The notes beneath the pieces are model-generated. The model made no database searches. It saw nothing but the letters and a program-made list of their open reading frames with translations, and had not been told where the DNA came from. Below, in pieces: positions 1-10,027 of a stretch of DNA of 64,000 nt. The translations under genes were made by a program, and so were the position numbers. Source of the stretch: Chelatococcus asaccharovorans (GTDB lineage: Bacteria > Pseudomonadota > Alphaproteobacteria > Rhizobiales > Beijerinckiaceae). How positions within the stretch are numbered: position 1 is the stretch's first letter; each line of letters opens with the position of its first letter. The DNA lies in NCBI RefSeq assembly GCF_003201475.1, contig NZ_QJJK01000006.1, positions 124,001 through 188,000 of the forward strand, in the 5' to 3' direction.

Positions 1-81
1 GTGAGCGGCCGCGGTTATCGCTTCGTCGCGCCGCGTCGAGACACTGGCTTTCCCGATGGTTTCCGACAGGCGGTTTCATAG
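1..81 (+). CDS. C-terminal end of a winged-helix (Trans_reg_C) regulator, partial
   Basis: The frame is open at the window edge and ends at a TAG at 79-81. Its residues include GRGYRFVAP, the typical wing and last beta strand of OmpR/CadC-type winged-helix DNA-binding domains (family knowledge: V-x-G-x-GYRF). After this only about fifteen residues follow, so the visible part is the end of a DNA-binding domain with no long C-terminal extension. It overlaps the next gene's ATG (56) by 26 bp. Only 26 residues are visible, so the call rests on one motif; the rest of the gene lies outside the window. Confidence 0.5.
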   Translation: MSGRGYRFVAPRRDTGFPDGFRQAVS

Positions 82-517
82 CTGGGCCGCGAGGACGCCA
101 TGGGCCGTTTTCCTGATCGCTCCCATTGTCGGTTATGGCGTGATCGTCGCGATTCTTGCCTTCGCATTGGCCTCGGCAACCTCTCCCGGCATGGCTCCCG
201 CCTGGTTCGGCGCGGTGGGCCGGGCAACCGGGTATTTCGCGGCTTTCGTCGCGCGGTTGATCCTCGCTTGGACCTTGGCCTTTGTGGCGCGGCGTCAGCG
301 TTCGCGCGCGATATGGCCTCTGATCGGGATGGGTCTCACGATCATCGCCGCGACTGTCATCGAGCTTCAGGTGAGGCTCGCCGGCCCGCAACAGGGCGGC
401 GAGATCGCCATCGCGCTGACCATGCCTTCCGTCATGCAGATCGCCGCCCTTCTTCTGGCGGCGGCCGCACCGTTGCTTCTACTTAGAAAACACGATCAAG
501 CCGTTTCTCGAGGATAA
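56..517 (+). CDS. Small integral membrane protein, unknown function
   Basis: Codes for 153 residues with about four hydrophobic segments (roughly residues 17-40, 58-78, 87-105 and 125-145) and a short basic tail, so it is very probably an inner-membrane protein. I do not recognise the family. It starts inside the 3' end of the preceding winged-helix reading frame and is followed after two bases by the next ATG at 520, which indicates a tightly packed operon of small envelope genes (56-517, 520-948, 953-1442). The close coupling to a winged-helix regulator suggests that regulator may control the set, but this is inference. Confidence 0.55.
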   Translation: MVSDRRFHSWAARTPWAVFLIAPIVGYGVIVAILAFALASATSPGMAPAWFGAVGRATGYFAAFVARLILAWTLAFVARRQRSRAIWPLIGMGLTIIAATVIELQVRLAGPQQGGEIAIALTMPSVMQIAALLLAAAAPLLLLRKHDQAVSRG

Positions 518-519
518 CA

Positions 520-948
520 ATGTTTCGCTATGTCAGGAATTTCACATCCTTTGCTCTGGCCACTTTCATCGCGGCGACTCCCGCGATGGCCGAATCCCAG
601 TCGAACGACCGCTTGGCCGAATTGGGACGTGGCATCTATCAAGAAGCGGCGGCTCAGACCGCCATCGCAGATCTACTCGAAGCTCTTCACACCCAATTTG
701 AGCGACTGATCGAGGCCGGACAGCAGATCGGCGCCATCCGCTCGGACCTACTGCTCGCCTTGCTAACGGACATGGCTTTCGCTGCTGCGCGTGAACCGGA
801 CCGTTGGTTTGCCCTGAATACGCAAAATCTCGATCCACAGAGCACCCTCGCCCTCAACCACCGCGTCTTCAGCATGTTCACTGCAATGCTCGCGCCAAGC
901 GAAGGTGGCGGCGAGTCAGCGAAGGTTTCCGAGCCATCCAAGGATTAG
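520..948 (+). CDS. Secreted protein: signal peptide joined to a TetR-type C-terminal (ligand-domain-like) region
   Basis: Codes for 142 residues. Residues 1-24 look like a Sec signal peptide (basic start, hydrophobic core, TPAMA cleavage motif). From about residue 60 the sequence reads like the C-terminal helical domain of TetR-family regulators: an FxRLIEAGQ-x-IGAIRSDL segment, a run of small hydrophobics, a DRW, and a terminal MFTAMLAP. No TetR helix-turn-helix is present. The product would therefore be a periplasmic protein built from, or resembling, a regulator's ligand-binding domain. It lies in the three-gene cluster starting at 56. It could be a real neofunctionalised protein, a recombination relic, or a coincidental helical resemblance. 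Confidence 0.5.
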   Translation: MFRYVRNFTSFALATFIAATPAMAESQSNDRLAELGRGIYQEAAAQTAIADLLEALHTQFERLIEAGQQIGAIRSDLLLALLTDMAFAAAREPDRWFALNTQNLDPQSTLALNHRVFSMFTAMLAPSEGGGESAKVSEPSKD

Positions 949-952
949 CCGT

Positions 953-1442
953 ATGCCCACCTCCCGCCTCGTCATCACCATGCTTTTGGTCGCATCCGCA
1001 CTGAATTTGGCGCTTATGGTTCCTGGGGGGATTCGTTGAAACGCGAGATTTCAGCGCCTATCCCCCCATTGTCCTCGGCGCATTCAACGTGTTTTTGACG
1101 GTGCTTGGTTTGGGCAGCCTTGTAATTGCCTATACGGTCACGAAAGCTGGCAGAGGATATCGCTGGTCCGCACTTGCCGGTCTCGGCTTCATCGGCGTCT
1201 ATCTACTCGATCTCTGCCGTATTTTTCCTGTGCCGCCCAATCCGATGTCGACGCTCTTGGCGACGCTGGAATGGGTCGGTACAGCTCTGGGCGGCGCCTT
1301 GGTCATAATCTCGCTCGTTCTATCACAGCGCGCCGCGGCGACCTCAGCCGCGCCATCGTTGCCGAAGCCGGTCATGTTCGGCCTCGGGCTCGTGGCGCTG
1401 ATCATTGTCGCCTTTGCGACAAAATCCGCAATGGGCATTTAA
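953..1442 (+). pseudogene. Membrane protein gene with a +1 frameshift at a G6 run
   Basis: The ATG at 953 is four bases after the previous stop and opens a hydrophobic reading frame that ends prematurely at 1039. Dropping one G from the six-G run at 1025-1030 joins it smoothly to the frame that continues to a TAA at 1442, giving one protein of about 160 residues with about four membrane segments (near residues 8-25, 40-60, 72-90 and 130-155) and no gap in hydrophobic pattern. The simplest reading is a single-base insertion or sequencing error in a homopolymer; programmed slippage is possible but unsupported. I do not recognise the family. Confidence 0.6.
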
Positions 1443-1895
1443 AGCCCATTCCGATCAGATGGCAGCTTGGGGCGCGGTTGGCTGCGTAGGTCAATTGCAA
1501 CACCGAGCAGCATTAGAGTGCTATAGCGTAGATGTATTGCTCGTCATCGTCGGGCGTGGCCCGCCAAACACCGCCGATTACCGCATACAATAGCCTATGT
1601 GCCGCCGATCACCGCACGCCACCAAGTTGATGCGACCAACTACCATCCCGCGCTACAGCCGTATGAACCCGGAGGATGGAGATGATTGCGTCCCGCCCAT
1701 AGCCGTCGGTCGAGGTTAGCCCTGGCGCTACCACTCTCACCTGTAGCCGCCTTCTAACTTTAAAACTGGATCACTTGATCGGGGCAGACCACCCGAGAAG
1801 GCGAACGGCGAAGCATAAACCCCGACAAACGCGTTGGAATCTCTCCCTGCGCTTGGTGTGTTTGCCGAGCAACAGGCGGTTAAGGATGGCGGGAA
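1443..1895. other. Gene-poor stretch with one arm of a direct repeat
   Basis: No convincing gene is visible over about 450 bases. On the minus strand a 43-codon frame (1740 down to 1609) and a continuation ending at 1513 can be read, but neither resembles a known family. The block at 1513-1565 recurs imperfectly at 4042-4095 in the same orientation. A good Shine-Dalgarno (AAGGA, 1882-1886) at the right end belongs to the next gene. Confidence 0.5.
1513..1565. repeat. Direct repeat R1 (left of the DUF262 gene)
   Basis: The first 22 bases match the block starting at 4042 at 20 positions (shared core GCTATAGCGTAG), and a GGCCCGCC is shared near the far end. Read on the minus strand both blocks end in codons for YAIAL-stop, so they may be the tails of two related short reading frames. 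The pair brackets the DUF262 gene. Confidence 0.45.
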
Positions 1896-3854
1896 TTGGC
1901 AGGGGCACAGCAGGAACTCACCGTCCGCGGCGAACAGGTGGAACGTGTCTTCATCAACTACCGGGACGACAAATATGTCGTGAACCGGAGGTATCAGCGC
2001 AAGTTGATCTGGACGATCGAGGAGAAGCAGAGCTTCATCGATTCCATCATAAGGGGATTCCCGGTCCCGATCATCTTGCTCGCTGAGCCGCTGGGGCGGC
2101 AGGACGGCACCCTCGAAATCATTGATGGAATGCAGCGAATGAACGCGATCACGTCGTTCATTGGCAACGACTACCCTGTCGATGGCGGCTACTTCGATCT
2201 AAACACCTTCGCGACGACCAAGGATCTGCTTGATCGACATGTGATCGAGCAGAAGACACCCGTGCTCGATCGGGAGAGATGCCTAGCGATCGCATCCTAC
2301 CCGGTGCCCCTTTCAATCTACGAGGCCGCGCACGGGGAATCTGTGGAGGAGGTATTCCGGCGCATCAACTCGGGCGGTCGCCAACTCTCCCGCCAGGAAC
2401 TTCGGGCCGCGGGTGCAACCGACGCCTTTGCCGACTGCGTTCGCCAAATATCGGCCCGGGTCCGGGGCGACACCTCGAACTCGGACCTGTTGCTGCTGGG
2501 CGAGATGCGCAAGATCAGCATCACCAACCGCGAACTTGACTACGGCATCAGCGCCGACGGTGTCTTCTGGGTCGCGCACGGGATCCTAACGAAGGATCAG
2601 CTACGCCAAAGCCGTGAAGAGGAAATGGTTGCCGATCTCGTCGCTTACATGGTCTCGGAAAGCCCGGTTGCCTCTAGTGGAGCGAATTTGACATTTGAGT
2701 CCCACCTGACATCAAGCTCCAGATCAAATGTCAAATTCAAAAGCTCCACTAGAACCAATAACTTGCTAGTGGTTCTCTTGACTCCGACATTTGCTCCAAG
2801 GGTGGTATCGGACGGATGCAAATGTCAGAGTCGAACCACTAGAACCGAACTCTTCGATGATTACTACGGCGCTACTTTCCCAATGTCGGAAGCCAGCGAG
2901 GCGCGTTTCGACGCCGTCGATCAAGCGGTGAGAAAGCGGAGCACTGAACTGGTTGATCTCGACTATCAGCGTGTGCAGGACACACTTATCCTATTGCTCG
3001 GACAAGCCAAGACCACGTTCTTGGGGCTTATTTTCCCGAACGGTAACGGCGGCAACCCCGTTCCCCGCTACTTCCAGGCCGTGTTCCTTGCCTTTTACGA
3101 TCTGATCGTAAAGCGAGGAATGGTCGTGTCCGACAGCGCGGGCCTCATCAAGTGCCTGACCGACTGCGGCAAGAGCATCGAAATTCAGGACGGCGGCAGG
3201 TGGGGCGCAGACAACCGTGGCAAGACCGTCAATTCCGTCGTCGGATGGATCCAAGGTCACTTCGAGGAAGACAAAAACCCAGACCCGGCGAAGGTTCACT
3301 GGGTAACCAAATTCCAGAACCTCCTGACGAACTCGAAGACCGAGCAGGCGGCCTACGATTTCAAGCAGGGCTTCTGCACACTCGACCCCAAGCCTTCGTT
3401 CGATGCGGAGTCGTTCGACAAGATCATGGAAACTTGCGCTGCCATCGCCAACATCGGCAAGGGACACAAGGGCTACATCCTCGTAGGCGTTGCCGAGAAC
3501 GCCGCGACGGCAGCTAGGGTGAACGACGTTTTCCGGAGCAGTCCGCTGACTTACGGCGGCTTCTACGTTACGGGAGTGGAACACGAGGCCCAACACCTTG
3601 GCAAGAGTCTGGATCAAATGTTCCAGGACATCTCGGACCGGATCGGGCGGTCCGATCTCTCGGAGCCACTGCGCCCCTACGTCAATTCCCACGTGAAGTG
3701 CGTCCAGTATTTCGACAAAACCATCTTCGTTTTCGAGATCGTCGGACAAAACGGCCCCTCTCACGTCGGAGGGAAATGGCTGGAACGCCAAGGTGCACAA
3801 GTGAAGGAAGTGGCCCCGGATCGGATGGGAGCCCTGTTCGACCGCTTCAAATAA
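1896..3854 (+). CDS. DUF262 (ParB/GmrSD-N-like) protein with an AlbA_2-like C-terminal region
   Basis: Codes for 652 residues. The N-terminal third has the DUF262 hallmarks: YQRKLIWT (33-40), FPVPIIL, an IIDGMQRMNAI version of the usual DGQQR motif (75-85), and FRRINSGG followed by LSRQELRAA (about 150-170). The family includes the N-terminal half of GmrSD-type modification-dependent nucleases. Near residues 505-540 an IMETCAAIANIGKGHKGYI...GV segment resembles the AlbA_2/Schlafen-type nucleotide-binding region, so the protein looks like a two-module fusion. The start is a TTG; an in-frame stop lies 15 bases upstream and AAGGA sits 9 bases before it, so no longer start exists. Residues 260-316 are an inserted palindromic element. 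GC is lower than in the flanks. Function is unknown; a defence role is inferred from family and island context. Confidence 0.75.
   Translation: MAGAQQELTVRGEQVERVFINYRDDKYVVNRRYQRKLIWTIEEKQSFIDSIIRGFPVPIILLAEPLGRQDGTLEIIDGMQRMNAITSFIGNDYPVDGGYFDLNTFATTKDLLDRHVIEQKTPVLDRERCLAIASYPVPLSIYEAAHGESVEEVFRRINSGGRQLSRQELRAAGATDAFADCVRQISARVRGDTSNSDLLLLGEMRKISITNRELDYGISADGVFWVAHGILTKDQLRQSREEEMVADLVAYMVSESPVASSGANLTFESHLTSSSRSNVKFKSSTRTNNLLVVLLTPTFAPRVVSDGCKCQSRTTRTELFDDYYGATFPMSEASEARFDAVDQAVRKRSTELVDLDYQRVQDTLILLLGQAKTTFLGLIFPNGNGGNPVPRYFQAVFLAFYDLIVKRGMVVSDSAGLIKCLTDCGKSIEIQDGGRWGADNRGKTVNSVVGWIQGHFEEDKNPDPAKVHWVTKFQNLLTNSKTEQAAYDFKQGFCTLDPKPSFDAESFDKIMETCAAIANIGKGHKGYILVGVAENAATAARVNDVFRSSPLTYGGFYVTGVEHEAQHLGKSLDQMFQDISDRIGRSDLSEPLRPYVNSHVKCVQYFDKTIFVFEIVGQNGPSHVGGKWLERQGAQVKEVAPDRMGALFDRFK
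2674..2752. repeat. Palindrome P1 inside the DUF262 gene
   Basis: Left arm 2674-2698 (CTAGTGGAGC then GAATTTGACATTTGA) pairs with right arm 2724-2752, with four extra T-side bases in the right arm and a loop of about 25 bases. It lies in frame within the coding sequence and has no stop codon in the coding frame. Confidence 0.8.
2766..2842. repeat. Palindrome P2 inside the DUF262 gene
   Basis: Left arm 2766-2794 (CTAGTGGTTC, four extra bases, GACTCCGACATTTGC) pairs with right arm 2818-2842, with one C/T mismatch. It shares CTAGTGG and GACATTTG with the palindrome at 2674-2752 but differs elsewhere in both arms together, so the two are diverged copies of one element type in tandem. Confidence 0.8.
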
Positions 3855-4254
3855 GTCGCTGAAAGAGGCCCTAATCAATGGGGCCCGCTTCTACTTCAGG
3901 CCGCCCGGTTCGGCTTCCTCGGTGCCGCATGGTCTATGCCTGGGCAGCAGTGGTGGGTCAACAAGCCATGGCGGATTCCTGCGTTTAGTAGTCCGTCGAC
4001 CCGACGAAGCGAAGGTCCGCTTTCCGCCCATAGCCCCAAATTTAGAGAGCTATAGCGTAGGTGTAGTTCTCCGATTCTTCGTCTTCGGCCCGCCGGAGGA
4101 GATTCGAATCGGTACTTCATGTTTCGAACGCACTGTGGATGTCTGCTTTATCGACCTTGCTCTTCGGAAGAGGACTGACAGCTTCCGGCCCCAAGTCTCC
4201 CATTTGGAAGCGGTTTCCAAAGTCGCGTTCAGCGGCACCTGGAGCAGAGCGCGA
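3855..4254. other. Gene-poor stretch between the DUF262 gene and the integrase relic
   Basis: No gene is convincing here. The stretch carries the second arm of the direct repeat at 4042-4095. On the minus strand around 4086-4112 there is GATTCGAATC followed by a C-rich run, which recalls a tRNA 3' end, but the T-stem does not pair. The DUF262 gene ends in TAA and the integrase relic converges from the other side. Confidence 0.45.
4042..4095. repeat. Direct repeat R2 (right of the DUF262 gene)
   Basis: Imperfect copy of 1513-1565 in the same orientation: 20 of the first 22 bases match, and GGCCCGCC is shared further on. With its partner it frames about 2.5 kb that includes the lower-GC DUF262 gene, consistent with a duplication or an insertion boundary. 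Confidence 0.45.
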
Positions 4255-5095
4255 TCACTTTAGGTTACCCGCGCGCAGCTCATCCAGACGGTCGGCCCAC
4301 CAAGTCATCATCCGAACGCGCTCGTCCCAATGCTCGCCGCGAGCATAGGCGCGCCGGACGCTGTTTTCCTCCACATGCGCAAGCTGCCGCTCAATGGCAT
4401 CCGGATGCCATAACCCACTCTCGTTGAGCATGGAGCTGGCACTCGCGCGGAACCCGTGCGAGGTCATCTCGTCCTTGGTGAAGCCCAAACGACGTAGCGC
4501 CGCATTCAATGTGTTTTCCGACATGGGACAGAGGACCGAGCGGATCGAGGGAAAGACAAGGGTGCCATGACCCGTGAGTTGCTGCACATCTTTGAGAATA
4601 GCGACCGCCTGCTTGGACAATGGCACCCGATGGGGACGGCGCATCTTCATCCGCGCTTCCGGAACGATCCATACCTCCTCGTCCAGCTTGAACTCGGACC
4701 AATGGGCCGCTCGCAACTCACCCGGCCGAGGAAAGAGCAGTGCCAAGAGCTTCAACGCGGCTGTCGTCGTGGCCTGACCCTCGAAGCCATCGATTGCCCG
4801 CAGGAGCGCCCCAAAGGCTTTTGGCTCGGTCAAGGCGGCCCAGGATTTCCTCTGCGGTGTGGTCAGAGCGCCTCGCAAGGCGAAGGTCGGGTCAGTATCG
4901 GCACGCGCGCTGCCTGTGGTGGAGCGCAGCCAGCGCGCATTCATTCCACCCCGCTCGTCTGCGCACTTCGACCCGCCGTAAGGTCTCGAGAATTTCGGGG
5001 GCCGTGATCTCGCGAATCGGACGACAGCACCGTGCAGCGTCCAGGATTGTCCAAATAGGAATGTGGTATGAAATGGCCGATGACCATCTCATCAA
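4255..5095 (-). pseudogene. P4-type tyrosine integrase, N-terminally decayed
   Basis: The C-terminal 229 codons (4944 down to 4255) keep the tyrosine-recombinase catalytic domain: an R in RPGELR, SHGFRASASS for the H-x-x-R box, a later QLAHVEENSVRRAYAR for the second H and the tyrosine region, and a WWADRLDELR tail typical of P4-type integrases. Upstream, another frame (5095-4892) still encodes ITAPEILETLRRVE, the conserved hinge of the same family, but it is out of frame and the linking segment is shortened. The gene is therefore broken by deletion and frameshift. It abuts the 3' end of tRNA-Ser, the usual position of an integrase in a tRNA-targeting island, which would extend to lower coordinates. 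Confidence 0.8.
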
Positions 5096-5128
5096 CCTAA
5101 ATTATTCAATTAAATCAATTACTTACAG

Positions 5129-5224
<96 letters not shown>

Positions 5225-5249
5225 CGCGCTTGAAAAATATAACAAATCT

Positions 5250-5495
5250 TCAAAAAAGCACGCGACAGACCGCTGTCTCTGTGCCCCCATTTCGTGACGC
5301 TGCGCCCTTGGCGTGGGATTGCTGCGCCGCGGTGAGGACGTCCAAATAAGGCTCGGTCATCGTCACCGAGCAAAAGCCTGGATGCCTCTGGATGTCATAG
5401 ATCGAGCCGCCGCGCCTCACATAGTCCACTGCAGGACCAGAACGCAAGTCGCGAAAGCGAAATGGCCGTAACAGCACACCGGATTCTGACGCCAT
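5250..5495 (-). pseudogene. Relic of a second tyrosine recombinase C-terminus
   Basis: The 81-residue frame aligns by eye with the end of XerC-type phage integrases: FRDLRSGPAVDYVRRGGSIYD stands where FHDLRHxFAxxYLRxGGSIYD is expected, then QRHPGFCSVTMTEPYLD where QxHLGHSSxxxTExYLD is expected. The catalytic H-x-x-R is altered (HDLRH to RDLRS) and the LGH histidine is lost (PGF), although the tyrosine in EPYLD remains. With no N-terminal part and several catalytic changes it is a dead fragment. It sits on the other side of tRNA-Ser from the P4-type relic. Confidence 0.65.
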
Positions 5496-5822
5496 CGTTG
5501 TGTCGCGCGAGGGCGGCAGATGCCGACCCTATCGCTCGAGATCCGCCGTCGCGATGGGTCGGCTTCCAACCCCGGCCCTCGCAATATCGCGATATCCATA
5601 GAAATCGACAATGAGGGGCCTGGGAACCCCGGCAGGTGGAAAGCCCGCGCGACGGGATGGGATGGCAGGTCCGGCATGTCGCAAGCACGGCCTCGATTCG
5701 TCGCGCATCCTATGAGGCGTGACGCGATGCGAGGGAGAACGGGACATCGGCCGGGAGAAGGCGCCGCTCAGCCTGGGAACGTCTTTGCGGTCCAGCCATG
5801 CGAGCGCGGACGCGATACTCGG
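5496..5822. other. Non-coding or decayed stretch
   Basis: No gene can be supported here. Open frames exist on both strands but have unlikely composition and no recognisable motif. It probably contains further eroded recombinase sequence, given the relic immediately to its left, but I cannot align it. Confidence 0.4.
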
Positions 5823-6206
5823 TCAGATCAGGCCGGCCTGCTTCGCCCACTTCATATGCGTGAAGGCCGTGACCTCATAGCGCGCCATATAGGTACAGCG
5901 CTGCCGCTCTCCCGGCATGAAGGTAAACCGCAAATCCCGCGCCAGCGCGCTCGCATCCCCACTATCGCCAAGCATCACCATCTGGGTGATGCCCCCCGCC
6001 CGGCTCTCCACTGCAAAATCGCCGCGCAGCCGGGGCGTCAGCCAGGCCACGGTGACTTCATTCGGCGTGGGAAAGAGCCGGCCATCCCCGAAGGCGGGCT
6101 TCTCGCGCGACCGCTTCCTCAGGGTCAGAAAATCCCGAAACTCGAAGACGATGCCGTGACTGAGCGCGTGAAGCGCGTAAAACTTGCCATTCGTCAACCG
6201 TGCCAT
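5823..6206 (-). CDS. Hypothetical protein, about 127 residues
   Basis: I do not recognise the family. The start at 6206 (MARLTNGKF) is preferred over one 33 bases further upstream because a GGGGGAG Shine-Dalgarno lies three bases before it. The protein is soluble, with no signal peptide, rich in Phe, Arg and aromatic beta-type segments, and looks like a small globular domain. It is divergent from the AraC-type regulator at 6374, with about 170 bases of shared intergenic DNA, so that regulator might control it. Confidence 0.6.
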   Translation of the reverse strand: MARLTNGKFYALHALSHGIVFEFRDFLTLRKRSREKPAFGDGRLFPTPNEVTVAWLTPRLRGDFAVESRAGGITQMVMLGDSGDASALARDLRFTFMPGERQRCTYMARYEVTAFTHMKWAKQAGLI

Positions 6207-6373
6207 TGTCTCCCCCAAGACTGATAGGCAAGGTCCCACGCAGTCTCTATACCGTGACTCAAAGGCAGATCAACCTACCCGTGAAGAGCTCTGGTTAGCC
6301 GGCCACTCTTGCTCTAGTATTGCGCAACCTCACCTTTGGCGAAGCTTTGCCTACATAATGCACCGTTGCTCCG

Positions 6374-7198
6374 ATGGCTACCGAGACTTTGCGCAGCCCA
6401 GCGACCACGTTCATACAACACGAGCAAGCGGCTTCCGCCGGCTGGCGCTATCGGCTGGAAGCGCCGCGCTGTGAAATCGGCATCTGGCAGGGCGATCGCG
6501 CGCCGGCGCTCGGCACCCATTTCCACAGGGAGGATCAGTTGACGCTCGTATTGAGCGGCAGCCGCCATTTTGTCAGCGCCCGTGCGCAGTTCCACGTTCC
6601 CTCGGGCCACGCTATTCTGTTCCCGGCCGGCGTGCCACATAGCAGCCTGTCCCAATCGCACCCGGATACGCGGTGCCTGAATGCCTATATCACGCCGTCT
6701 CAGCCCGGCTATTGGCCTGTCGTCTTACAGATCCAGGAGAAAGAGCTGGCGGATATCGACGTTATGCGCCTCGCGGCCCGGCTGCAAGGCCAACCAGGCC
6801 CCGCCGATCATTCCGGCGCCTCGGGAGCCGCACGGCAGTGGCGAAGCGCAGCCTTGAGCGGCGCGCCCGTTGCGCTGCAGGCGCGGCAGCACGGTCTCGG
6901 GCGCGAGGCGTTCAGCCGCAAGTTCGAGCGCCTCGTTGGCATGCCACCCCATGCCTTTCGACTGATCCAGCGCTTGAATCTGGCACGGGATCGGCTGCGC
7001 GCCGGCCGGGAGATCGCCGATGTCGCCTGCGAATGCGGCTTCGCGGACCAGAGCCATTTCGGCCGCCATTTCCGCCGCGCCTTCGGCGTGACACCCCGCG
7101 CCTATCGCGATGGCCTGGCGCCGCATCCGTCCGCGGCGAACGCCAGCACGGCCCTCAAACAAACGCGCAAACTCACCGACCTTGATGGCACCGGTTGA
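6374..7198 (+). CDS. AraC-family transcriptional regulator
   Basis: Codes for 274 residues. The N-terminal half looks like the AraC-type cupin sensor (THFHREDQLTLVLSG and later a PAGVPHS beta-turn, about residues 45-100). The C-terminal third carries the double helix-turn-helix, with the second one clear in IADVACECGFADQSHFGRHF followed by RAFGVTPRAYR (about 220-255), the family signature. It probably acts as a cytoplasmic, ligand-responsive activator. Candidate targets are the divergent hypothetical gene at 5823 and the TauE/SafE permease downstream at 7404. The effector cannot be guessed. Confidence 0.9.
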   Translation: MATETLRSPATTFIQHEQAASAGWRYRLEAPRCEIGIWQGDRAPALGTHFHREDQLTLVLSGSRHFVSARAQFHVPSGHAILFPAGVPHSSLSQSHPDTRCLNAYITPSQPGYWPVVLQIQEKELADIDVMRLAARLQGQPGPADHSGASGAARQWRSAALSGAPVALQARQHGLGREAFSRKFERLVGMPPHAFRLIQRLNLARDRLRAGREIADVACECGFADQSHFGRHFRRAFGVTPRAYRDGLAPHPSAANASTALKQTRKLTDLDGTG

Positions 7199-7274
7199 TT
7201 CAATCCGCGCCGGATTGGCTCGATAGCCCGCGACGCCGATCACAAACGTTCCAGACATCGAAGCGAAAGGGGCC

Positions 7275-7373
7275 TAGATCCGACTTGGAGGGAATCGTCC
7301 AAGACCATCCAAGGCGATGAATTGGCTCGTCTTTTCTCAAGCGGAGCGAATCCGCGACAGACGGATTGGCTCG
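7275..7373 (-). repeat. Dispersed repeat family A, copy 1
   Basis: About 100 bases between the AraC gene and the TauE/SafE gene match the copies at 8164, 22931 and 34746 through blocks such as ATCCGACTTG, ACCATCCAAG, CTCAAGCGGAGC and AAGACGGA-like ends. It is in the opposite orientation to the copy at 8164, so the permease gene lies between inverted copies. Confidence 0.75.
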
Positions 7374-7403
7374 ACGCTATCTCGCTTCCGCGAAAGGCGT
7401 GTC

Positions 7404-8165
7404 ATGGACTGGAGTGTCGTCGTTCTCCTCGCTCTCGCCGGAATGGCGGGGGGTATCATCAACGCCGTGGCGGGCGGGGCCACCCTCATCACCTTTCCGG
7501 CCATGCTGGCGGCCGGCATGCCGGCCGTCACGGCCAATGCGTCCAACGCGGTTGCCATCGCGCCGGGGCATCTGATCGCCGCCCTTGCGGACCGGGAAAA
7601 ACTCCCCGCCTTCGACGCGGCGTTTTTCGTGTCGATCATGCTCTGTATCGGCGGCGGCATGACGGGCGCCTTGATCCTGCTCGCCCTTCCCGATCGCCTG
7701 TTCATCCTGCCCGTCCCCGCCCTGATCGGCTTCGCGACGCTGGTCTTCGCCTGTGCGCCGCGGATCAGCAGGTGGACAGCGCAGCGGCGCGGCACCGCGC
7801 AGCCCTCGCGACGGGCAGCCTCGGCAACGCTCGCCGCTGCATCGGTGTATGGCGGCTTCTTCGGCGCCGGCCTCGGCATCATACTCACCGCCGTTCTATC
7901 GATCGCCGACCCGGTCGACATTCGCCGTGTGAAGGTGCTCAAGAACCTCCTCGCCACCTGCGTCAGTCTGGCGGCAATCGCCATCTTCATCCTGCGCGAC
8001 GCCGTCCAATGGCCGGAGACGCTCGTGATGCTCGCCGGCGCGCTCCTCGGCGGCTACGCCGGCGGTTTTCTCGTGCGTATTTTGCCAGCTGAATATGTGC
8101 GGCGCTGCGTGATCGTCGCCGGCGCCGCCATGAGCATCATCTATGCCTATCGGTACTGGCTTTAG
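7404..8165 (+). CDS. TauE/SafE (TSUP) family membrane permease
   Basis: Codes for 253 residues with about eight hydrophobic segments. It has the family's two half-repeats: GGIINAVAGGATLITFPAML (about 12-31) near the start and VYGGFFGAGLGIILTAVLS in the middle, the usual TauE/SafE hairpins. Members export sulfite, sulfoacetate or other organosulfonates across the inner membrane, but the substrate here is unknown. The start at 7404 is chosen because 87 bases upstream in the same frame are repeat family A sequence rather than conserved protein. It lies downstream of the AraC-type gene, and inverted repeat copies flank it. Confidence 0.88.
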   Translation: MDWSVVVLLALAGMAGGIINAVAGGATLITFPAMLAAGMPAVTANASNAVAIAPGHLIAALADREKLPAFDAAFFVSIMLCIGGGMTGALILLALPDRLFILPVPALIGFATLVFACAPRISRWTAQRRGTAQPSRRAASATLAAASVYGGFFGAGLGIILTAVLSIADPVDIRRVKVLKNLLATCVSLAAIAIFILRDAVQWPETLVMLAGALLGGYAGGFLVRILPAEYVRRCVIVAGAAMSIIYAYRYWL

Positions 8166-8268
8166 AGCAAGTCCGTCTGTTGCGGATCGGCTCCGCTCAG
8201 GAATTGACGGGAAAATTCACCGCCTTGGATGCTATCAGACGGTTCCATCCAAGCCGGATTTGTTCTGG
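8164..8268 (+). repeat. Dispersed repeat family A, copy 2
   Basis: Starts AGAGCAAGTCCG and ends near CCGGATTTGTTCT, so the ends are roughly inverted repeats of one another. It lies between the convergent 3' ends of the TauE/SafE gene and nusB. It is inverted relative to copy 1 at 7275. Confidence 0.85.
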
Positions 8269-8298
8269 CGGGGATGGAGCGTCCGCCGTGGCCTTCGG

Positions 8299-8778
8299 TC
8301 AGGCGCGCGGTGCGAGTTCCCCGGGCCGGACCTCCCGGGCGACGGCATCCAGCACCGCATTGACGAAGCCCGGCTCGTCATCGCTGTAGAAGGCGCGCGA
8401 CACGTCGACATATTCGGAGATGACGACACGGACCGGCACGTCCTTGCGGAACATCAGCTCGTAGCAGCCCGCACGCAAGACGGCACGCAGGACGATCTCC
8501 ACCCGCGTCAGCGGCCAGCCCTTGGCGAGCGCCGCATCGACCTTGCGGTCGACGGACTTCTGCTCCCGCACGACACCGGCCACGATATCCCGGAAAAAGG
8601 CGGCCTCAGCCGGCTTGAAGGACACGCCGTCGATCTCCTGACCCATCCAATGGGCCTCAAACTGCGCGACGGCCTCGATAACCCCGGTCCCCGCCACATC
8701 CATCTCGTAGAGCGCCTGCACGGCGGCCAGCCGCGCCGCGCTGCGGCGTTCGCCCTTGGAAACAGCAGCCTCGCTCAT
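8299..8778 (-). CDS. nusB: Transcription antitermination factor NusB
   Basis: 159 residues, normal length. Recognised from [17 protein letters not shown] at the N-terminus and the C-terminal [17 protein letters not shown]...[31 protein letters not shown], the conserved NusB helices. NusB binds boxA RNA with NusE and supports antitermination in rRNA operons. It overlaps ribH by 4 bases, so the two are translationally coupled, as in many proteobacteria. In related genomes thiL usually follows; here the gene instead faces a repeat and the TauE/SafE gene, and thiL is 23 kb away. Confidence 0.96.
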
Positions 8779-9275
8779 CGGGCCGTATCCGCAGCCGACA
8801 ATACGCGTTTGATGCGCAGGACCGCGAGTGCCGCCTGGGCTGCGCCGCCGCCCTTGTCCATCTCGCCGACGCGCGCACGCGCCCAGGCCTGCTCGTCGTT
8901 CTCGACCGTCAGAATGCCATTGCCGAAGGGCAGACGGCGACTCACGGCCAGATCCATGAGCGCGCGAGCGCTTTCGTTGGCGACGATGTCATAGTGGCCA
9001 GTCTCGCCCCGGATCACGCAGCCGAGCGCCACGGCCGCATCATAAGGCATGCCGCGCGCCTCGGCCGCGTCGAGGGCGATCGCCAGAACGGCCGGCAATT
9101 CCAATGCCCCCGGCACAGTGAGCACATCGACAGAGGCGCCAGCGGCTTCGCAGGCGCGACGTGCGCCACGCAGCAACTCGTCCGCCAGATCGTCGTAGAA
9201 GCGCGCCTCGACGATGAGGACGCGTGCTGGCCCCGAGGTGGTGGCGACAGGTGTGCTTTGGCGTGGAGCGGCCAT
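8775..9275 (-). CDS. ribH: 6,7-dimethyl-8-ribityllumazine synthase
   Basis: 166 residues. The product condenses 5-amino-6-ribitylaminouracil with dihydroxybutanone phosphate to form lumazine, the penultimate step of riboflavin synthesis. Motifs: VPGALELP (54-61), [14 protein letters not shown] with the catalytic His near 94, [12 protein letters not shown] (115-126), and [10 protein letters not shown]. The start at 9275 (MAAPRQ) gives the usual length; the frame stays open upstream but that extension is not conserved-looking. It overlaps nusB and follows ribE by 77 bases. Confidence 0.95.
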
Positions 9276-9352
9276 GACAATGATCCGGACAAGACAATGG
9301 GACAGATGACAAAAGCGGCCCGACCGTAAAGATAGGACGAACCAGGCCAGTG

Positions 9353-10027
9353 TCAGTAACCCGCCCCCCGCGCCTCTGCAAGGCGTGCAGCATAGCGTGC
9401 CATGAGATCGACCTCGAGATTGAGGGGATCGCCGACGCCACGCTCGCCCCACGTGGTCACTTCGAGGGTATGGGGGATGAGGAGAATGGAGAACACGTCA
9501 CCTTCGACGTGGTTCACCGTGAGCGAACAGCCATCGAGCGCAACGGAGCCCTTGGCCGCGATGAAAGCCGCGAGGGGTTTGGGCGCGCGAATATCAAACC
9601 GCGCGGTGGCTCCCCAGGCGCCTGTGTCGCGCTCGCCCCCGCCGCTCTCTCCCCCCTCGCCCACCGCGGTGATGTCTTCGCGCGCGATGATGGTGGCGAT
9701 ACCGTCGACATGGCCCGTGACGATATGTCCCCCGAGCTCGTCGCCGATCTTGAGCGAGCGCTCGAGATTGACGCGCGTCCCGATGGTCCACCCCCCGACG
9801 GTGGTCAAGGCGAGCGTCTCGGCCGCCGCATCGACCTCGAACCACGCGCCGCGCTCATGGGGGCCGACGGCGACGACCGTCAGGCACGGGCCGCCGCAGG
9901 CGATCGAAGCCCCGATGGCGATCGTGGCCGGATCATAGTGGGAGATAATACGGAGGCGGCGCAATGTGCCCTGGAAGTTCTCCGCGGCGGCAATCTCGCC
10001 GACATCCGTCACGATTCCGGTAAACAT
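9353..10027 (-). CDS. ribE: Riboflavin synthase, alpha subunit
   Basis: 224 residues. It dismutates two lumazine molecules to riboflavin. The MFTGIV start, [20 protein letters not shown] and the second-domain DGCSLTVN are the family's paired lumazine-binding folds. A low-complexity Gly/Glu insertion at about residues 123-137 ([10 protein letters not shown]) lies in the second half and is unusual compared with typical 200-residue homologues. It overlaps the 3' end of ribD by 19 bases, so the two genes are coupled. Confidence 0.95.

Follow-up and report, generated by a model that had tools for sequence, protein, structure and literature searches.

A DUF262 gene of Chelatococcus asaccharovorans holds two adjacent palindromes inside its open reading frame, and the locus raises the question of whether these are an ordinary part of the protein or a mobile element that entered it in frame, and in the latter case how such an element is moved. 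The window is the whole stretch of DNA analysed (64,000 nucleotides), and positions given without a locus name refer to it. The segment is a CTAG insertion with a net gain of 165 bp, it is mobile, and a hairpin is conserved at each of its ends. We consider it likely that it is a recent copy of a non-autonomous mobile element composed of two bulged hairpins in inverted order, with CTAG as its target, ends that are read as hairpins and an enzyme acting in trans. The features of the locus are as follows.

1896-3854, plus strand: DUF262/GmrSD_N-domain gene, 652 aa as interrupted (596-597 aa in viral-contig homologues), from the open frame, domain search and alignment.
2674-2842, plus strand: whole mobile element, 169 nt from CTAG to CTAG, net insertion 165 bp, from the sequence, the gap in homologues and an identical copy at G000:C9:198051-198220.
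2676-2840, plus strand: codons 261-315, 55 residues added in frame, from the gap in homologues.
2674-2677, no strand: left CTAG, the target or boundary tetranucleotide, from the one 4-mer at a paralogous empty site.
2674-2752, plus strand: hairpin A, with outer arm 2674-2698 and inner arm 2724-2752 carrying a 4-nt bulge, from fold, covariation and arm spacing.
2697-2701, no strand: GAGTC (GANTC) at the tip of the hairpin A outer arm, where 20 of 38 copies have GANTC.
2753-2765, plus strand: linker of 13 nt between hairpins A and B, from the sequence.
2766-2842, plus strand: hairpin B, with the bulged inner arm first and the outer arm ending at 2842, from fold, covariation and arm spacing.
2780-2784, no strand: GACTC (GANTC) in the hairpin B inner arm.
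2828-2832, no strand: GAGTC (GANTC) in the hairpin B outer arm; 29 of 38 copies have GANTC in each of the two B arms.
2839-2842, no strand: right CTAG, from the sequence and a paralogous empty site.

The GmrSD_N/DUF262 domain occupies residues 22-172 of the window protein (Pfam), and an AlbA_2 match under the curated cut-off lies near its end. An open frame is what would be expected of a normal stretch of the protein or a local duplication within the DUF262 gene, but this explanation is refuted by the homologues and by the presence of the same DNA at tens of unrelated loci. Three viral-contig DUF262 proteins, 77% identical to the window protein and aligned over all 652 residues, each lack exactly residues 261-315, with one further gap in a single homologue, and proteins from Azotobacter, Pantoea and an E. 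coli plasmid (53, 36 and 35% identity) are without the same 55 columns. The earlier note had proposed an in-frame insert of about 57 residues (260-316) and a check of whether homologues lack it: the insert is indeed absent from 6 of 6 aligned proteins and the frame is open over 1896-3854, while the exact extent is 261-315, or 55 residues and 165 bp, between the invariant flanking residues S260 and R316. When only one CTAG is kept, the window DNA encodes ASRTEL, the same as in the closest homologues; the DNA of the viral-contig DUF262 genes at this place is TCGCGT, so the homologues' own site is not CTAG. Since 165 is divisible by three and this copy has two stop-free frames out of six, the insertion added 55 residues and did not destroy the protein; survival of the DUF262 frame probably reflects luck together with selection against broken copies. 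Structure prediction of the DUF262 protein from a four-row alignment was uninformative (mean pLDDT 32). A tRNA lies at 5138-5224 on the minus strand (Rfam), adjoining an integrase-like frame at 4255-4944 (by eye), and because of this pair the DUF262 gene may sit in a genomic island.

Both palindromes are found by sequence and by fold at the places given in the earlier note (A at 2674-2752, B at 2766-2842, with the linker at 2753-2765). The element strand folds far more stably than shuffled sequence, as RNA (-74.1 kcal/mol against -38.2 shuffled, z -9.15) and as DNA (-44.8 kcal/mol, z -10.18), with 0 of 200 shuffles as low in either case. In an Rfam search of window positions 1-10000, the element had no match at E values up to 1.

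The own genome of C. asaccharovorans (7.25 Mb in 40 contigs) was searched for further palindromes, as the earlier note had proposed, and at least 41 near-full-length places 91-100% identical to the window copy were found with 40 of 111 candidate stretches scored. The two observations that would have refuted the earlier note, a segment common to the homologues or a lack of other copies, were therefore not made. The outer end, allowing at most 2 mismatches, matches this genome 208 times, against 15 for the reversed pattern. Pairwise identity among 39 full-length copies in fetched loci is 86-100%, with 3 identical pairs, and the copy at G000:C9:198051-198220 is identical to the window copy over all 169 nt, which indicates that the insertion is recent. 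Copies also occur in tandem arrays with a period of 165, in which neighbouring units have a single common CTAG; contig C23 ends inside such an array (G000:C23:47868-48440, L544), so the copy number may be underestimated. The copy at C6:370878-371046 lies within an older, diverged copy, and its flanks, joined at one CTAG, match an uninterrupted older copy near C8:7959 unbroken at the join, where the latter has CTGG and shows a one-base gap a few bases downstream. The element inserts at CTAG to give a filled site of CTAG-element-CTAG with a net gain of 165 bp. Empty sites carry one 4-mer, which fits duplication of TA, duplication of CTAG or a one-sided CTAG alike; TA, CTAG and an element-owned CTAG are indistinguishable, CTAG being palindromic and found at either end of the element. 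Plasmid relatives are too diverged for empty sites to be read, and so, between genes, is a 17-kb region compared with genus mates, in which the tandem array and other CTAG repeats were seen. Counting truncated units, 119 of 169 collected units have CTAG at both ends, and the base after the element CTAG is nearly always T, a preference that the collection pattern itself favours. Two diverged relatives of about 133 nt with a much shortened second hairpin (L061:2233-2365 and L107:7047-7179) form a possible distant subfamily. Two other short repeats in G000:C1, of about 106 bp with CTAGAGCATTTTCG ends (L063:14801-14906) and about 100 bp with CAGGCTGTTGAAAAACTG (L063:14329-14430), have matches in genus mates too, and element copies abut both at common CTAGs.

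Collection across genomes yielded 145 double units, 46 from the own genome and 99 from others, which measure 160-180 nt and in a few cases have mispaired ends, and 24 short units of 70-80 nt, 13 of which are single hairpins joining an A-type to a B-type end, the rest being truncated or cut short. Covariation was measured in 46 diverged doubles chosen from 73. Within hairpins, 96.1% of cells are paired in these 46 copies, and the compensated change of arms described in the earlier note is seen among them: 22 of 50 pairs are altered on both sides (10.7 shuffled), in 129 cells (26.7 shuffled), with 0 of 500 shuffles as high. A 38-copy subset, which leaves out 8 of the 46 copies, Novosphingobium-type ones among them, gives 21 pairs (8.4 shuffled) and 92 cells (16.7 shuffled); the contrast is stronger with all 46. 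Arm spacing is strict in the 38-copy set, in which all 76 outer arms have a spacing of 9 between CTAGTGG and GACATTTG and the 74 matched inner arms one of 12-14; in the 46-copy set the inner bulge is absent from two arms, hairpin A of L095 and hairpin B of L180. GANTC, the CcrM site (PMC2229807, in the part available), occurs 2.6 times per element in the 38 copies against 0.67 in shuffles, and 2.7 times per element in the 46.

The same alignment bears on how the ends are recognised. When the two outer ends are aligned with each other in the 46 copies, 83.7% of cells pair, so that they form a fair inverted repeat, as expected of a simple DDE-type MITE. A rival that we regard as rather unlikely though worth weighing is a plain MITE for which an IS630 (Tc1/mariner) transposase is responsible, with TA duplicated inside CTAG and hairpins that are incidental. 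Against this rival, covariation is found within the ends and is absent end to end (5 cells against 7.5 shuffled in 46 copies, 5 against 5.4 in 38). An outer arm thus covaries with the inner arm of the same hairpin but not with the opposite end, and for this reason the moving enzyme most likely recognises either end as a folded single-strand hairpin, as is the case for a REPIN. Compensatory changes could, however, also arise without selection, if one arm serves as template for the other during replication, and this would weaken the reading. The strong covariation within ends, set against its absence between them, makes the hairpin reading directly testable.

A search for a mobilising enzyme was made with Pfam families in the own genome and in other carriers. 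For DDE_3 (IS630, PF13358) the own genome gave no match, and only 10 of 24 carrier genomes gave any, which counts against the IS630 explanation. In its favor, the IS630-type elements of several carriers end in CTAGTG or CTAGAG (CTAGTGCACTGAC.. in G149, CTAGTGTCCCG.. in G392), both ends of the IS630 of G149, G292 and G343 fall in the top 0.3-1% of 1870 CTAG sites scored with the element end profile, and RUP of pneumococcus is a precedent for an IS630-moved MITE (PMC2229807, available portion). Compared with 64 CTAGTG sites, however, the same three reach only the top 5-16%, and gapped local alignment is no better than random; in a non-exhaustive search of carriers, none of the fetched IS630 loci has the element's ends much beyond CTAGTG. 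IS630 elements with CTAGAGC-type ends were also seen in other genomes (L215, L216, L218 and L241).

Movement as a REPIN by a RAYT (TnpA_REP) transposase would account for hairpins in inverted order, a tetranucleotide at the foot, conserved pairing, and the existence of single and double forms. For Y1_Tnp (RAYT, PF01797), however, only 4 of 25 carriers (own included) gave a match, leaving 21 without it, the own genome and the copy-rich G320 among them, and a classical REPIN system is for that reason unsupported. The foot is CTAG, not GTAG or CGTC, and the hairpins of about 78 nt exceed the 20-40 bp given for REPs in the accessible text of PMC3733652, so that we hold a RAYT-moved REPIN to be highly improbable. 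For the preferred reading, a non-autonomous element with hairpin ends, the enzyme would act in trans and is probably a transposase that was passing or has been lost.

Several other candidates were set aside. Seven own-genome matches to PF01609 include none bounded by element ends; an ordinary double copy lies near one of these loci (L558). An IS481-like element (family assigned by eye) has 22 matches in G149, for example L243:2071-3095, and an end that resembles the element's B end (GATCCCGGCATTTG vs GATTCCGACATTTG), with local similarity in the top 1-2% of random CTAG sites. The own genome contains four partial matches to its protein, for example C16:83883-84694, and three genus mates have none at that threshold. 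It was nevertheless discarded as mobiliser on account of its 6-bp target duplication, read by eye in three copies (ACTAGG in L244, ACTAGC in L253 and GTTAAC in L261), as opposed to the near-invariant T after the element's CTAG. An end pair spanning 1.67 kb in G200 proved to be a double and a single copy flanking genes that are sugar-transfer-like by eye, and longer CTAG-ended pairs in own-genome stretches are copies of the element itself only.

Besides the window copy, nine open frames passing through copies with at least 70 codons on each side were examined by Pfam. Two of the nine are real in-frame insertions, both in viral contigs. In a DNA methylase (L089), 55 residues are missing at the element in 10 of 10 homologues examined (79 were found besides itself), and the homologues have CTCGG or CTGGG at the position of the element's CTAG; in an AAA_24 protein (L090), exactly 55 residues are missing in 72 of 79 homologues, with gaps of 48-52 in the other 7. 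The element lies in L089 and L090 in the orientation opposite to the window copy, and the other of its two commonly open frames is used. The remaining 7 frames (among them L020, L027 and L031 from the own genome) have no Pfam domain spanning the element.

Position relative to genes was scored by a heuristic that requires open flanks of 300 nt, the highest GC at third positions, and the same phase on both sides. Among 47 own copies with enough flank, two have same-phase frames on both sides, the window copy and L059, and L059 was ruled out since it sits on the stop codon of a BPD_transp_1-domain gene, leaving the window copy as the only one of 47 within a gene. An earlier count with looser ends, in which the window copy went undetected and L062:6387-6552 (166 nt, open frame) was the one other candidate, was replaced by the stricter ends, under which that candidate is unlisted. 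The search for other in-frame copies inside genes, which the earlier note had called for, was thus answered positively by the viral contigs L089 and L090 and, as far as the heuristic goes, negatively by the own genome.

Some copies are found at gene ends, and in 14 of the 47 an upstream coding-like frame takes its TAG stop from the element; if phase alone is counted and TAG is not required, 15 of 47 lie at the stop position, against 0 and 1 in the other phases. These stops and the covarying arms would suit hairpins kept for an RNA role at gene ends, as terminator or mRNA stabiliser, with mobility secondary. Within 114 kb of this genome, plain CTAG sites are broadly similar (n = 27, of which 5 at stops and 5 within coding frames in the same test), albeit as a small background drawn around copies and in the window. 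Because plain CTAG sites have a similar share at stops, CTAG targeting plus selection against gene damage may suffice to explain the location pattern. As copies also lie within genes, within each other and in viral contigs, we judge an RNA role improbable.

Net length is divisible by three in 33 of 34 own copies with intact ends and in 34 of 74 outside the own genome. Of the 34 own copies, 27 and 28 keep one or the other of the two open frames free of stops, as do 13 and 15 of the 74 others, compared with 4.9% and 4.0% in shuffles; relatedness of copies weakens this enrichment, from which selection for open frames is not claimed. In-frame insertion looks opportunistic, and the element is no gene specialist.

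Several described repeat families resemble the element in part. The earlier note compared it with the Rickettsia palindromic element (RPE), for which we know of no transposase. The RPE is palindromic, of about 150 bp, and found in frame in coding genes (PMC10969869 and PMC2229807, as far as their available text describes it), and the comparison is one of behaviour, not of sequence. It applies to a mobile palindrome inserted in frame inside conserved genes, of which the window, L089 and L090 are three independent cases. It fails for the gene specialisation of the RPE, with its frequent intragenic location and conserved coding frame: the element is rarely in genes (1 of 47 own copies), its net length is often not a multiple of three (34 of 74 copies elsewhere are), and it has two hairpins and a CTAG target. 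With REPINs and RAYT-associated REPs it has in common a pair of hairpins in inverted order with conserved pairing, singlets and doublets, and a high copy number, and it differs in the CTAG foot at both ends, where those systems have a GTAG-type tag and a RAYT gene in the genome, in hairpins of about 78 nt, and in the 21 of 25 carriers without Y1_Tnp. IS630-type MITEs such as RUP and Correia elements are alike in terminal inverted repeats and some genic copies, and may be so in the target, if TA within CTAG is what the element duplicates; they are unlike it in that each of its ends is a covarying hairpin, that no end-matching IS630 partner was met among the fetched loci, and that DDE_3 is absent from the own genome.

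The CcrM-associated intergenic repeats (CIR) of Caulobacter are likewise alphaproteobacterial, with arms, a linker and conserved GANTC sites, which the element has as well. They are described in the available part of PMC2229807 as about 110 bp long, with stops in all six frames and no intragenic ones found, and this description sets the element apart, with its 169 nt, intragenic cases and two open frames in many copies. YPAL/RU-2 and ERIC are MITE-like repeats of 127-168 bp with open frames that fuse in frame, and they differ in being enterobacterial and in that the portions available of PMC2759123 and PMC2229807 describe them without a CTAG target. In-frame palindromic insertions are thus already known (RPE, ERIC, YPAL and short Correia elements, in the available text of PMC10969869, PMC2229807 and PMC2759123), as are REPs inside genes (PMC3733652, in part). 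A description of this element was not found in the open part of PubMed Central, and an alphaproteobacterial double-hairpin family with a CTAG target is apparently widespread but undescribed. The locus offers a natural, recent extension of a protein in frame by a mobile element, outside Rickettsia and in a bacterial defence gene, and the cost of the insert is measurable because closely related insert-free proteins exist.

Spread was surveyed with the outer-end pattern. It has no match in any of 3 genomes of the genus or 9 others of the family and matched, weakly, 1 of 8 other genomes of the order; when more genomes were drawn, 1 of 19 others of the family has one end match. In the order as a whole the pattern is found in 30 of 397 genomes (own included), belonging to 13 of 142 genera and 12 families by row count, and the reversed-pattern control is zero in all rows of that survey. 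A scan of named genomes gave at least 108 stretches with the pattern, with 80 titles among the matches listed. The matches listed include Hyphomicrobiales (Pleomorphomonas, Ancalomicrobiaceae, Methylosinus, Phyllobacterium, Agrobacterium and others), Sphingomonadales (many Novosphingobium), Caulobacterales, Rhodobacteraceae, Geminicoccaceae and Telmatospirillum; we take all taxa among them to be Alphaproteobacteria, except two labelled only Proteobacteria. Within Alphaproteobacteria the element family has a patchy distribution that extends over many families with strict architecture, yet no mobiliser was found by the Pfam searches. A broader reading, which we put forward tentatively and with considerable doubt, is of a class-wide alphaproteobacterial transposable element with single-stranded bulged-hairpin ends, inserted at CTAG by an enzyme neither RAYT/IS200-type nor IS630-type, which GANTC in the arms would tie to CcrM methylation and the replication fork, and which would reach viral-contig genes and add 55-residue inserts. 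None of 50,697 phage records has the pattern. It is present in 12 of 72,556 plasmid records, all from hyphomicrobial genera, and in 8 viral contigs. In another observation, on the minus strand of viral contig L088 just below position 382, a lone element end is shortly followed by a palindromic repeat that resembles what we take to be a CGTC-type REP dimer.
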